Source of the DNA: Natronobacterium gregoryi SP2
GTDB taxonomy: Archaea; Halobacteriota; Halobacteria; Halobacteriales; Natrialbaceae
Assembly: GCF_000230715.2 (NCBI RefSeq)
Contig: NC_019792.1
Coordinates: 1,612,001 to 1,676,000 of the forward strand
DNA length: 64,000 nucleotides
Direction: 5' to 3'
Under the pieces are notes generated by a model, which saw only the letters and a list, made by a program, of their open reading frames with translations, ran no database searches and was not told the DNA's origin. Below, piece after piece: positions 10,868-51,714 of this stretch (positions are counted from its first letter, which is position 1; every line of letters starts with the position of its first letter). Position numbers and translations under genes: made by a program.

Positions 10868-12019
10868 ATGATCAAGATAACTTTTGCAAATATGGACTGA
10901 GGAACTGGTCGATCCAAGACTTGGCGAATCCAAGTCGATCGGTGAGGGTGTTGAAGAGGCGGCGAGCGAGAGTGCGGAACGCGCTCTCGCTCGCCACGAC
11001 GATTGGTGAAGCATTCCGTTTGAGCACTTTCCAGACCTGCTCGATTGGATTGAGATGCGGTGAACCGACCGGAAGAAAGACGAGATCGATACCGAGTTGA
11101 TGTGCGCGCTTGCGCGTGTGCTCACAGATGTGAGACGAGAAGTTGTCCAAGACGAGCAGAATCCGCGTTCCCGGATTCTGCTCGCGGACCTCCTCCAATA
11201 GGGCACAGATGTTCTCTTTCGATTGATCTTCAGGAAAGGTCAGGACACTTTCGCCGTTGAGCGTATAGCACCCGACCGCTGGTTCGTCAAGCTTCACCAG
11301 CGGTCGTTCGAGTGTCGGATCATCGACGTACCACAGTCGATGCGAATTGTCGTATGGTTGCGGATGAGAAGCGTCACAAAAACCGACGATAGTTCCTCCA
11401 TCTGTACAGATATCGTCGTCGAGAACCCAGCCTTCGTCCTCATCCTCGGGACGCTTGTTATGTGCTGTCTCTGTTTCCTCGTCGAACGCGTCTGCGACGC
11501 GTTCTTCGAGGATTTCATCTGCATTTTCTGGCCGTGAGGGACGTTTTGGACGTGGTTTAGCGTAAGACAGTCCGAGATTCCGGAGGAATCGACCGAGATA
11601 ATCCGGATGGTACTCAACATCGAACTCTTCGTCCAAGAGCTGGTGAACTTCCTGTGCTTTCCAGGGCTGTCCCTCCCGGAGAAGTTCTAGAAGACACTCT
11701 TGTTCCTCGTCACCGAGCTTCGGGGGCCTTCCGCTCCCGAAGTTCGGTGTCAACTGACCCAGCCCGCCATCGTTCCATCGACGTGCCCAGCGACTTCCAG
11801 TCGACGCAGATTTCCCAACGTCGTCGGCTGCTTCTTCGTACGTTGCACCCTTGTAGAGACGTTTGACAAAGGTGAGCCGCTTGACGACCTTTGGATCGTC
11901 TGCTTCGTCCAGCAGACGATCCAACTCCTCCTCGCTCAGATGACGAACGAGCTCGCCCCGCCGGTCTCCTCCCATTACCCCGTTCGTCTTAGCCCACGCC
12001 CAAAACTTCTGTCACTCAT
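10868..12019 (-). mobile_element. IS630-type insertion sequence
   Basis: An 1152-bp element flanked by TA at 10866-10867 and 12020-12021, the TA duplication typical of the IS630/Tc1 group. Imperfect terminal inverted repeats of 19 bp: ATGATCAAGATAACTTTTG at the left and ATGAGTGACAGAAGTTTTG read inwards from the right (13 of 19 identical). One transposase gene fills it on the minus strand, with its stop codon inside the left repeat. It sits in the loop of a hairpin of the tnpB element. Confidence 0.85.
10872..11975 (-). CDS. IS630 family transposase
   Basis: A 367-residue DDE transposase. The N-terminal third carries two helix-turn-helix modules of the IS630 type (YKGATYEEAADDVGKS and the GSGRPPKL linker to a second HTH), followed by the catalytic core with Asp in GFCDAS, Asp in LVLDNFSSH and Glu in HLNPIEQVWK. 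No frameshift or stop interrupts it, so the element may still be mobile. It is transcribed opposite to the tnpB gene that surrounds it. Confidence 0.92.
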   Translation of the reverse strand: MGGDRRGELVRHLSEEELDRLLDEADDPKVVKRLTFVKRLYKGATYEEAADDVGKSASTGSRWARRWNDGGLGQLTPNFGSGRPPKLGDEEQECLLELLREGQPWKAQEVHQLLDEEFDVEYHPDYLGRFLRNLGLSYAKPRPKRPSRPENADEILEERVADAFDEETETAHNKRPEDEDEGWVLDDDICTDGGTIVGFCDASHPQPYDNSHRLWYVDDPTLERPLVKLDEPAVGCYTLNGESVLTFPEDQSKENICALLEEVREQNPGTRILLVLDNFSSHICEHTRKRAHQLGIDLVFLPVGSPHLNPIEQVWKVLKRNASPIVVASESAFRTLARRLFNTLTDRLGFAKSWIDQFLSPYLQKLS

Positions 12020-29968: not shown

Positions 29969-30245
29969 GAGTTGACGGGCTACGCGGAGGCGATCGAGGC
30001 CGGGAATCTCGACGTGACGGTCGGGGCGAAACGACAGCGCGGGCAACTCGAGACCGAACGTGTCGGCGGCAGCCGAAGAACAGACGAGCGCGGTACGGGG
30101 AATCGTCGAAAACGCCGAGTCGCTGTCGGGTCGTGCTGACGAACTCCAGTCGCTCGTCGACCGATTCGACACGTCGGAAAACGATGGAGCCGACGGCGGG
30201 GGGAACGGCGAGACAACCGACGTCGTGGTGGTCGGCGATGGCTAA
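29969..30245 (+). pseudogene. Collapsed second htr copy
   Basis: Two pieces of an htr gene are fused by a large internal deletion. First a HAMP-entry segment ELTGYAEAIEAGNLDVTV, closely like EMTGYAEEIESGNFDVTI of the intact gene; then, after about 35 bp, the C-terminal end NVSAAAEEQTSAVRGIVENA through LSGRADELQSLVDRFDTS to the stop at 30243. Everything between, including the signalling tip, is missing, and so is the sensory part. Together with the duplicated tRNA-Asp upstream it marks a former tandem tRNA-Asp/htr duplication. Confidence 0.8.
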
Positions 30246-30276
30246 TACCGTCCCAACCGTCGACTGACGGGTCGAA
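30243..30276 (+). repeat. TAGTAC-family palindromic repeat, left half
   Basis: Starts TAATACCGTCCCAACC and continues GTCGACTGACGGGTCGAA. It is identical, apart from one base at the end, to 51380-51413. The TAA stop codon of the htr remnant is its first three bases. The right half is degenerate here. Confidence 0.65.
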
Positions 30277-30479
30277 ACCGGTTGTGTGGGCCGGCTCGAC
30301 GCCTTCATCGACGTTTGACCAAGAGCTGACCGATCTGTGGCTCCGGTCGCTCTGATAAGAATATATTTCCGGGCGAGAGCTAATTAGTTAATAACCGATT
30401 GGGGTCCGTCGTACGACGAGTGGGGATCGTCGGGGTCGGCGACGAGGACCGAGATCGCGACAGCAGACTACGCAGATTC

Positions 30480-49231: not shown

Positions 49232-51298
49232 GTGTCGAAGCAGGTCCAGCAGGTCGATACGATCTTCTGTCACGAGACGGGAGACGACTACCTCACCATC
49301 GTCGAGCGGGACGGCGAACGGCTGTTCCGGGCGAAACTCGGTCTCTCGGAGACCTCGGCCGGTCCCCGGCCCGCCAAGTTCCGGCTGAAGCAAGGTTCGA
49401 CCGAAGAGCCACGCCAGCCCGACGAGTTCGTCGAACTCGCACGCCGTGCGAAGCGAATTCGAATTTCGGAACAGACCTCGCAAAGCGCACGCGAAGAACT
49501 GATGGAGATGTTCTCGGGCTATCAGCTCGAAAATAAAGCGAAAGCCGTCAGAACCTGCCGGTACTGTGCCTCTGCGGGCCGGTACTCTCCAATTACGACC
49601 GAAACCGCGGTCAAAGACGACCAAGACTGGATCTGCCAGGACTGTGCACGTCAGGAACTCGAGCGTCAACTCACCTACAGCAGCGGCGGCGAGGTGACGG
49701 GAACGGCGAAAGAACGACTCGAAGAACTAATGCTCGAGGTACAGGACCTCCAGCGGATCGTCAACCTGCTGCAGGGACAACTCGATCCCGACCTCACGAA
49801 GTTCGATACGATTTCGGCGACGACCGACGAAGTCGACCCCGTCCGTGTGGACTCGCTGAACCTGCATCCGGGCCTGCAGAACCTACTCGAGGACCGGTTC
49901 GAGACGCTACTTCCGGTACAGAGTCTCTCGGTCGAAAACGGGCTGTTCGACGGTGACGACCAGCTCGTGGTGTCGGCGACGGCGACCGGGAAGACCCTAG
50001 TCGGTGAGATGGCCGGAATCAATCGCGTGCTCAACGGCAAGGGGACGATGCTCTTTCTCGTCCCGCTGGTCGCGCTCGCGAACCAGAAGTACGAGGACTT
50101 CACCGAGGAGTACGGTCATCTCGTCGACGTCTCTATTCGCGTCGGTGCGAGCCGGATCGCCGATGAAGGCGAACGGTTCGACCCGAACGCCGACGTCATC
50201 GTCGGCACCTACGAGGGGATCGACCACGCCCTCCGAACGGGCAAGGAGATGGGCGACATTGGGACCGTCGTCATCGACGAGGTGCACACACTCAAAGAGG
50301 AGGGTCGCGGTCACCGCCTCGACGGCCTGATTTCGCGGCTCAAGTACGCCTGCGAACAGCGAGCGAAACGACGCGACGACTACGGAGGAGCACAGTGGGT
50401 CTACCTCTCGGCGACCGTCGGCAACCCCGAACAACTGACGAGTGCACTCGAGTCGACACTCATCGAGTTCGAGGAACGTCCCGTCCCGATCGAGCGTCAC
50501 GTCACCTTCGCCAGCGGTCAGGAGAAGGTCCGCATCGAGAACAAACTCGTCAGACGCGAGTTCGACACCGAGTCCTCCAAGGGCTACCGCGGGCAGACGA
50601 TCATCTTCACCAACTCCCGCCGGCGGTGTCACGAGATTTCACGGAAACTCGAGTACTCCGCTGCACCGTATCACGCCGGTCTCGACTACAAGCGCCGCAA
50701 GAAGGTCGAACGACAGTTCGGCGACCAGGAACTGTCCGCTGTCGTCACCACCGCCGCGCTCGCCGCTGGCGTCGACTTTCCGGCGTCACAGGTGATCTTC
50801 GATTCGTTGGCGATGGGGATCGAGTGGCTCTCCGTCCAGGAGTTCCACCAGATGCTCGGCCGCGCGGGTCGCCCCGATTATCACGACAAAGGAACAGTGT
50901 ACGTGCTGGTCGAGCCCGATTGCACCTACCACAACTCGATGGAGGGGACGGAAGACGAGATTGCGTTCAAGCTCCTCAAAGGCGAGATGGAGCCGGTAAT
51001 GACCGAGTACGACGAGACAGCAGCCATCGAGGAGACACTTGCAAACGTCACGGTCGGCGGGAAAGCCGCGAAGTCGCTCAACGATCGGATGCTCGGCGAG
51101 ATTCCGACCAAACACGCCGTCGGCAAACTCCTGCAGTACGACTTTATCGACGGCTTCGAGCCGACGCCGCTCGGCCGCGTCGTGACCGAACACTTCCTCG
51201 ATCCCGACGAAGCGTTCGTGCTACTCGACGGAATCAGGAAGGACGCCCACCCCTACGAGCTCGTTACCGACATCGAACTCCGAGATACAGACCTCTAG
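49232..51298 (+). CDS. Ski2-like superfamily 2 helicase with N-terminal DUF5814-like region
   Basis: 688 residues starting at GTG. The N-terminal 220 residues hold a haloarchaeal domain (recalled as DUF5814) with a zinc ribbon, CRYC about 107-110 and CQDC about 135-138. The helicase core follows: Walker A variant SATATGKT (about 247), DEVH (about 348-351), a SAT-type motif LSATVGNPEQL, TIIFTNSRRR and motif VI QMLGRAGRP (about 540). A winged-helix-like C-terminus ends the protein. Role unknown; similar to Hel308/Ski2 families in DNA or RNA remodelling. Its TAG stop is the first three bases of a TAGTAC repeat. Confidence 0.88.
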   Translation: MSKQVQQVDTIFCHETGDDYLTIVERDGERLFRAKLGLSETSAGPRPAKFRLKQGSTEEPRQPDEFVELARRAKRIRISEQTSQSAREELMEMFSGYQLENKAKAVRTCRYCASAGRYSPITTETAVKDDQDWICQDCARQELERQLTYSSGGEVTGTAKERLEELMLEVQDLQRIVNLLQGQLDPDLTKFDTISATTDEVDPVRVDSLNLHPGLQNLLEDRFETLLPVQSLSVENGLFDGDDQLVVSATATGKTLVGEMAGINRVLNGKGTMLFLVPLVALANQKYEDFTEEYGHLVDVSIRVGASRIADEGERFDPNADVIVGTYEGIDHALRTGKEMGDIGTVVIDEVHTLKEEGRGHRLDGLISRLKYACEQRAKRRDDYGGAQWVYLSATVGNPEQLTSALESTLIEFEERPVPIERHVTFASGQEKVRIENKLVRREFDTESSKGYRGQTIIFTNSRRRCHEISRKLEYSAAPYHAGLDYKRRKKVERQFGDQELSAVVTTAALAAGVDFPASQVIFDSLAMGIEWLSVQEFHQMLGRAGRPDYHDKGTVYVLVEPDCTYHNSMEGTEDEIAFKLLKGEMEPVMTEYDETAAIEETLANVTVGGKAAKSLNDRMLGEIPTKHAVGKLLQYDFIDGFEPTPLGRVVTEHFLDPDEAFVLLDGIRKDAHPYELVTDIELRDTDL

Positions 51299-51385
51299 TA
51301 CTCTGCCAAGCGTCGACTGCTGCGTGAACCCAGACGACCGCATTCGGTTTCACTCATCCGTTCAGGCTTGCCAAAGCACTAGTAC
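51296..51385. repeat. TAGTAC palindromic repeat, copy 1 of a tandem pair
   Basis: TAGTACTCTGCCAAGCGTCG ... TTCAGGCTTGCCAAAGCACTAGTAC. Aligns with the next copy at both ends; the middle has diverged. The helicase stop codon TAG is its first three bases. Confidence 0.7.
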
Positions 51386-51469
51386 CGTCCCAACCGTCGA
51401 CTGACGGGTCGAATCGGGCCACACCGCCAGATTCGACCCATCAGTTTAGGCTTGGCCCGCCACTAGTAC
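51380..51469. repeat. TAGTAC palindromic repeat, copy 2 of a tandem pair
   Basis: TAGTACCGTCCCAACC ... CACTAGTAC; inner arms GGGTCGAATC and GATTCGACCC make a good hairpin. It shares TAGTAC with copy 1. At its right end CTA (51463-51465) is, on the minus strand, the TAG stop codon of the small membrane protein gene. The left half recurs at 30243. Confidence 0.8.
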
Positions 51470-51714
51470 AGGTATCGTTCGTACAGCGGCACGAGCGCCG
51501 TCCAGAACAGGACGAAGACTGCACCGACGACGACGATGACGAGCCAGGGCGTCTCCGCCCCAGACGTCGGTTGTGCCGTCGCCGTCAGCGGCGACCCGCC
51601 GAGTAACACGAACGTCGCTGCAAACAGCAACAGGCAGACGACGACGCTGCCAACCTCGAGCGTCGTCGCGATAGGGTGTCGCCGGAACCGTGCGGCGAGA
51701 TTCGAGAGTGACAT
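51463..51714 (-). CDS. Small two-helix membrane protein
   Basis: 83 residues: basic N-terminus NLAARFRRHP, TM1 about 19-40 (VGSVVVCLLLFAATFVLL), a polar loop and TM2 about 55-75 (WLVIVVVGAVFVLFWTALV). Looks like the haloarchaeal small membrane proteins with no assigned role. Divergent towards the next repeat; its stop codon lies inside a TAGTAC repeat. Coding status rests on composition and membrane pattern only. Confidence 0.6.
   Translation of the reverse strand: MSLSNLAARFRRHPIATTLEVGSVVVCLLLFAATFVLLGGSPLTATAQPTSGAETPWLVIVVVGAVFVLFWTALVPLYERYLY

Follow-up and report, generated by a model that had tools for sequence, protein, structure and literature searches.

Why should a pair of short palindromic repeats, placed between two convergent genes of Natronobacterium gregoryi SP2, begin and end on the stop codons of these genes? 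The repeats lie in a window of 64,000 nucleotides (the whole stretch of DNA analysed here), and the original prediction described them as two tandem copies, of about 90 bp each, of a family built on stop codons. Read directly from 51295 to 51466, the locus has the order CTAG-A-CTAG-B-CTAG. There are indeed two CTAG-bounded palindromes in tandem, but they are two distinct modules, A and B, about 70% alike, and not one repeat. The best explanation, to which we assign a probability of roughly 0.93, is that 51298-51463 is a two-unit array of non-autonomous MITEs of the IS630/Tc1-mariner type inserted at CTAG, and that the link with stop codons results from the insertion target and from selection. 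The features of the locus, and of a related unit elsewhere in the window, are the following.

49232-51298, plus strand: gene of a DEAD/DEAH-type helicase, whose own stop is the insertion target.
51295-51298: left CTAG; its TA is the target-site duplication and its TAG the helicase stop.
51298-51379, plus strand: module A, an 82-bp palindromic MITE core, GTACTCTGCCAAG...GCCAAAGCAC.
51379-51382: junction CTAG, with a single TA common to modules A and B.
51382-51463, plus strand: module B, an 82-bp palindromic MITE core, GTACCGTCCCAACCG...GGCCCGCCAC.
51463-51466: right CTAG; CTA at 51463-51465 is the stop TAG of the convergent gene, on the minus strand.
51463-51714, minus strand: convergent membrane-protein gene, 83 aa.
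30243-30317 (genome 1642243-1642317), plus strand: degenerate B unit, whose left CTAG reads CTAA.

The coincidence of the helicase stop TAG with the left edge of the repeat, in the CTAG at 51295-51298, is as predicted. The stop of the convergent gene is not the last three bases of the second copy: it is the CTA at 51463-51465, and the final TAC (51467-51469) is host DNA. The inverted ends are GTACTCTGCCAAG... and GTGCTTTGGCAAG... in A, GTACCGTCCCAACC... and GTGGCGGGCCAAGC... in B. Rejoining the flanks at a single CTAG gives ...GACCTCTAGTACAGG..., an arrangement in which, before insertion, the helicase and the convergent gene would share one CTAG as their stop, with a 4-base overlap. Both stops of the convergent pair are thus preserved through insertion into the shared CTAG. 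The recurrence predicted at 30243-30276 exists, but it extends beyond a left half and belongs to the degenerate B unit; the TAA stop at 30243 does sit on the start of the repeat, because the CTAG of this unit has degenerated to CTAA.

A palindromic family with TAGTAC/CTAG ends is confirmed by its abundance: the 174-bp dimer has 75 BLAST matches in the genome (best E = 9.9e-87), and many copies share 97-99% identity with the units of the window. Copies were found with the dimer, single units, and short patterns, and counted in 416 kb around known copies, window included, of the 3,788,356-bp chromosome; genes in the fetched stretches were called anew for this analysis. This sample, in which C-only arrays and diverged copies are under-counted, holds 258 units in 129 contiguous arrays: 73 of A, 137 of B, and 48 of C, a third palindromic module of about 106 bp (the cores of A and B have 82 bp). 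With ≤2 mismatches allowed, a 19-mer of unit B has 120 occurrences and its reversed control 0. No unit C was found in plasmids, and an exact 33-mer scan of a collection of genome contigs, perhaps one without the source genome, gave no match. Units of all three modules are non-coding and too small for a transposase, and the 82-bp cores carry terminal inverted repeats (GTACCGTCCCAASCG). The arrays range from single B, A+B, and A-B inverted to many three- and four-unit combinations, the units within them being nearly always joined by one CTAG. There is a chimeric unit at 1795028, with an A core and the right end of B, and another in the array at 2312718, with a B core and a C-like left end. Such A/B and C/B chimeras indicate recombination or gene conversion between modules.

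Palindromes at convergent gene ends might be retained for a role of their RNA hairpins as terminators or stabilisers of mRNA 3′ ends. Unit B folds into a strong hairpin of 42-51 kcal/mol on either strand (-42.4 for B of the window; z about -6.6 to -6.7), and among 18 related units from several genera there are double, compensatory changes at 10 of 27 pairs (covariation score 0.183, versus 0.076 in shuffles and ≤0.087 when slid). The elements are also enriched between convergent genes (38/114 arrays, versus 38/215 gene pairs without an element). However, on one of its strands A shows only poor folding (z -1.4), and a terminator-like site is absent: a scan for terminators and promoters found nothing at the A/B locus. 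Element positions are, moreover, mostly not common to congeners. Because the paired changes are double ones from G-C to A-T, with G-U intermediates almost absent, they point to symmetry upheld at the DNA level rather than to an RNA role, which we regard as unlikely. An Rfam search of the window found only tRNAs.

An exact CTAG is found at 180 of the 218 analysable edges. Where TA is kept and the outer base is changed, this base is A, T, or G, often by transversion, and at the first base of the element itself almost every change is from G to A; the outer base therefore looks target-derived, as fits a duplication of TA. Outside the elements CTAG is under-represented (215 observed versus 417 expected), and its estimated occupancy, extrapolated from the sampled loci, is about 27% at stops, 8% at other intergenic sites, and 0.1% inside genes. 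With CTAG scarce and genic insertions selected against, survivors are left in intergenic CTAGs or on xxC-TAG stops. The association with stop codons follows, since a target CTAG arises wherever a TAG stop follows a C: in the fetched loci, 40 of 51 TAG stops preceded by C carry an element, as opposed to 2 of 48 preceded by G.

Selection may or may not fully account for the gap between 27% and 8%. Stop CTAGs are occupied about four times as often as other intergenic ones (odds ratio 4.1, P = 4e-5), as one would expect if CTAG-specific insertion were coupled to translation termination or to transcription ends and actively preferred stops. Yet the sampled loci were chosen for containing elements, promoters and missed genes are counted among the "intergenic" sites, and an insertion does least harm directly after a stop codon. 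The choice by IS630 of the TA in CTAG suffices without such coupling, which seems improbable. According to the title of Tenzen and Ohtsubo (1991), IS630 reportedly prefers the TA in 5′-CTAG-3′.

The relation to stop codons is far above chance, as had been proposed, but it fails as a general rule. An array edge is a gene's stop in 42 of the 129 arrays, this one in three being a value of the sample, from loci picked for copies, and lies elsewhere in 87. When both edges are well defined, the edge TAG is an exact stop at 26 of 144 edges and the other 118 are away from stops. A family built on stop codons is therefore not supported; both findings that the original prediction named as refuting it, copies mostly away from stops and stops conserved in relatives without the repeat, were made. 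Nor do the stops rely on the repeats. Sixteen stop-edge genes can be compared with up to four congeners, and the unit is absent from the congeners at 15 of them. In 13 of the 16 the end of the protein is unchanged (within 0-2 codons), nearly always without an element in the congeners; the corresponding site is an empty C-TAG in several of these and TAA or TGA in others. For the helicase, 80 related loci were fetched. More than 40 genomes were compared, and the C-terminus of the protein lies at the same residues, give or take a codon or two, in nearly all of them; in the Natrialbaceae among them the stop has the same position and the repeat is absent. Natrinema salsiterrestre and N. ejinorense have GACCTC-TAG there, empty and without the element. 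In one congener (G004) a single B-like unit sits on the same helicase stop.

Judging from these comparisons, the stop belongs to the gene, because congeners keep its position without the repeat, and the element inserted into it and duplicated it. The opposite reading is that the repeats supply stops, insertion upstream of an old stop truncating or re-terminating the gene. BOX repeats do encode the stops of 36 pneumococcal genes (PMC3049150), the exact stops at 26 of 144 edges would fit, and the C-termini of the congeners are too diverged to judge in the remaining 3 of the 16 genes. Against this, the 13 conserved genes, and the helicase across Natrialbaceae, end at the same place nearly always without the repeat, and stop supply is very hard to sustain.

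The preferred reading of these units as IS630-derived MITEs calls for an autonomous partner, of which the first clue was a BLAST match confined to ends in Natrinema sp. SYSU A 869 (L297). It corresponds to both ends of one IS630-type transposon, with the domains HTH_32/HTH_23/HTH_29 and DDE_3. A family-wide search with the C-terminal part of a relative gave matches in 28 of 125 genomes. Nine copies were examined, eight of 1,217-1,220 bp and a ninth of 1,209 bp, both CTAGs counted. The ends of the autonomous element are CTAGTACCGTCCCAACCGTGGAC...GTCACTCGACGCTTGGGAAGCTACTAG, and the end type in the examined copies is CTAGTACCGTCCCAACCGTGGACAG with its inverted counterpart. The flanks are CTAG/CTAG in five copies, CTCAG/CTCAG in two, CTGAG/CTGAG in one, and mismatched in one; the matched flanks show target duplication. 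More distant haloarchaeal IS630s are likewise flanked by CTAG. Where CTCAG or CTGAG is used, in some IS630 copies (L324, L326, L328) and in the MITEs of another genome (G024, L298), the extra base is duplicated, and apparently one transposase branch makes both 2-bp TA and 3-bp TNA duplications. All nine copies (L324-L329, L331, L349, L350) have an invariant AAAAAAA at the overlap between a 160-aa ORF and the transposase ORF that follows it, which suggests programmed frameshifting.

The left end of B agrees with an IS630 end at 18 of 19 positions and that of C at 17 of 19; right ends agree with IS630 ends at 9-13 of 19 positions (9-12 in A and B). A- or B-like units lie directly on the terminal CTAG of several IS630 copies (L321, L323, L327, L333). 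In the source genome itself no transposase of the partner branch was found. Its two multicopy IS630 types were rejected as partners, their ends (ATACTGATGG... and TAATGAGTGACAG...) being different from those of the units. The window contains a multicopy IS630 at about 11007-11381 on the minus strand, with a 379-aa ORF, ends TAATGAGTGACAGAAG, and seven further copies in the genome, 99% identical; this element is no partner of the CTAG family. Because the matching autonomous element is absent from this genome and present in sister genera, the MITEs here are orphans, and we infer that they were mobilised in trans by an IS630 since lost.

That the units are instead repeats of the REP/BIME type moved by a RAYT (Y1 HUH) transposase, with a GTAG/TAG end as a stop-supplying REP tag, would suit the palindromes, the mosaic arrays, the position downstream of genes, and the report of GTAG REPs as a source of TAG stops (PMC3733652), but it is scarcely credible given that the Y1 genes of this genome are all fragments (the largest, beside a tnpB-like gene, being an ordinary IS200/IS605), that the units have 82 bp with CTAG on both sides where REPs are hairpins of 20-40 bp tagged with GTAG or CGTC on one side, that the autonomous relatives carry terminal inverted repeats together with matched T(N)A duplications of a kind not produced by HUH elements, and that IS630 elements with the same ends contradict it. 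The tnpA of an IS200/IS605 at 3034588-3039063 (L200, L202) is interrupted by an insertion of about 4 kb, and a tnpB-like gene follows. The broken Y1 genes were rejected as mobilisers: for the one beside a tnpB-like gene, none of the A, B, or C units forms the ends, and one C unit lies nearby. An identity of the PATE/IS605 type was rejected as well, since terminal inverted repeats and TA duplications are present.

The CTAG family is separate from the TGATACGG family of the window, as the original prediction had it. Members of the latter are about 86 bp long (TACGG...CCGTA), occur at 12 places in the fetched DNA, including 1505866-1505951, and are flanked by matched 3-bp sequences at 11 of the 12: TCA/TCA (5), TGA/TGA (5), and TAA/TAA (1). 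The family is a separate MITE with TNA duplications, and TGA and TAA stops are among its targets because it duplicates TNA. The supposed common relation of both families to stops thus comes down to the target, CTAG in one and TNA in the other, either of which can contain a stop. In Natronolimnohabitans sp. A-GB9 and Natrarchaeobius AArcht7 (L127, L154) a TGATACGG element begins at the stop codon of this helicase gene, and in G004 (L247) one lies on the stop of a gene whose counterpart in the source genome has an element of the CTAG family. The families also nest: one TGATACGG copy interrupts a B unit, and CTAG units lie inside the GTAACTAGTTAC-like centre of TGATACGG-type elements at 954133, 2706811, and 3130632.

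The IS630-derived MITE reading can be put as a mechanism. An IS630 transposase acting in trans would excise a palindromic unit through its terminal repeat (GTACCGTCCCAASCGTSGAC), and the excised unit would insert at the TA of 5′-CTAG-3′, duplicating TA. Both edges of each unit would then be CTAG and each a fresh target; with every edge a new target, later insertions would build up mosaic arrays in which A, B, and C may follow one another in whatever order and orientation. Selection would remove the genic insertions, leaving those in intergenic CTAGs and on xxC-TAG stops, where the duplication would leave the stop intact, or both stops where convergent genes share a CTAG. The mobilising IS630 would since have been lost from this genome.

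A recognisable B-like unit is present in 35 of 121 genomes and 15 of 29 genera (Natrialbaceae, by the organisms found), mostly in few copies; congeners have 1-12 matches to the dimer each, and the expansion in this genome is lineage-specific. No insertion difference was seen between two strains of one species. It is conceivable, as a tentative extension, that these are the products of an orphan burst: more than 250 units, each offering its own CTAG edges, would have formed combinatorial arrays of three modules with exchange of arms, the symmetry at the DNA level suggesting correction templated by hairpins or cruciforms, or selection for single-stranded hairpins, and the units may move with a foreign IS630 enzyme.

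The kind of element is already known, namely an IS630-derived MITE; this family, its mosaic arrays, and the orphan burst are new, and neither this family nor any haloarchaeal IS630-MITE was found described in the literature searched. IS630-family elements are DDE cut-and-paste transposons that duplicate TA (PMC2170065). Members such as Shigella sonnei IS630 and ISY100 share HTH and DDE_3 domains, TA duplication, and CTAG preference with the autonomous relatives found here; in contrast, the units of the window have no transposase, and CTNAG, with 3-bp TNA duplications, is a further target of the autonomous elements in haloarchaea. RUP of Streptococcus pneumoniae, a 107-bp MITE whose proposed mover is IS630-Spn1 (PMC3049150), is likewise a short non-autonomous repeat with terminal repeats matching an IS630, whereas the genome studied here lacks the partner, its three modules are chained in mosaic arrays, and insertion is into CTAG. 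BOX, BIME/REP mosaics, and GTAG REPs are also modular composite repeats near gene ends, often carrying the stop, but the present units have no RAYT, are palindromic over their whole length, and show both terminal inverted repeats and duplication of the target. The MITEs of Haloquadratum walsbyi can lack a functional transposase (PMC3119063). These MITEs and SMRs are, similarly, transposase-free haloarchaeal repeats of 80-110 bp that insert into other repeats, although the SMRs are described as having no target duplication and, in the A type, PATE/IS605 palindromes as targets.

In conclusion, a single rule, the insertion target, explains why the start of short haloarchaeal palindromes so often coincides exactly with a stop codon. 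It also explains why the same genes carry now one and now the other of two unrelated families, CTAG suiting TAG stops and TNA suiting TGA and TAA. A large repeat family gains a partner, an IS630 subfamily with a CT(N)AG target, and Natrialbaceae provide a ready system of empty sites. A caution also follows: the apparent supply of a stop codon by a repeat can be a target-site duplication and not the truncation of a gene.
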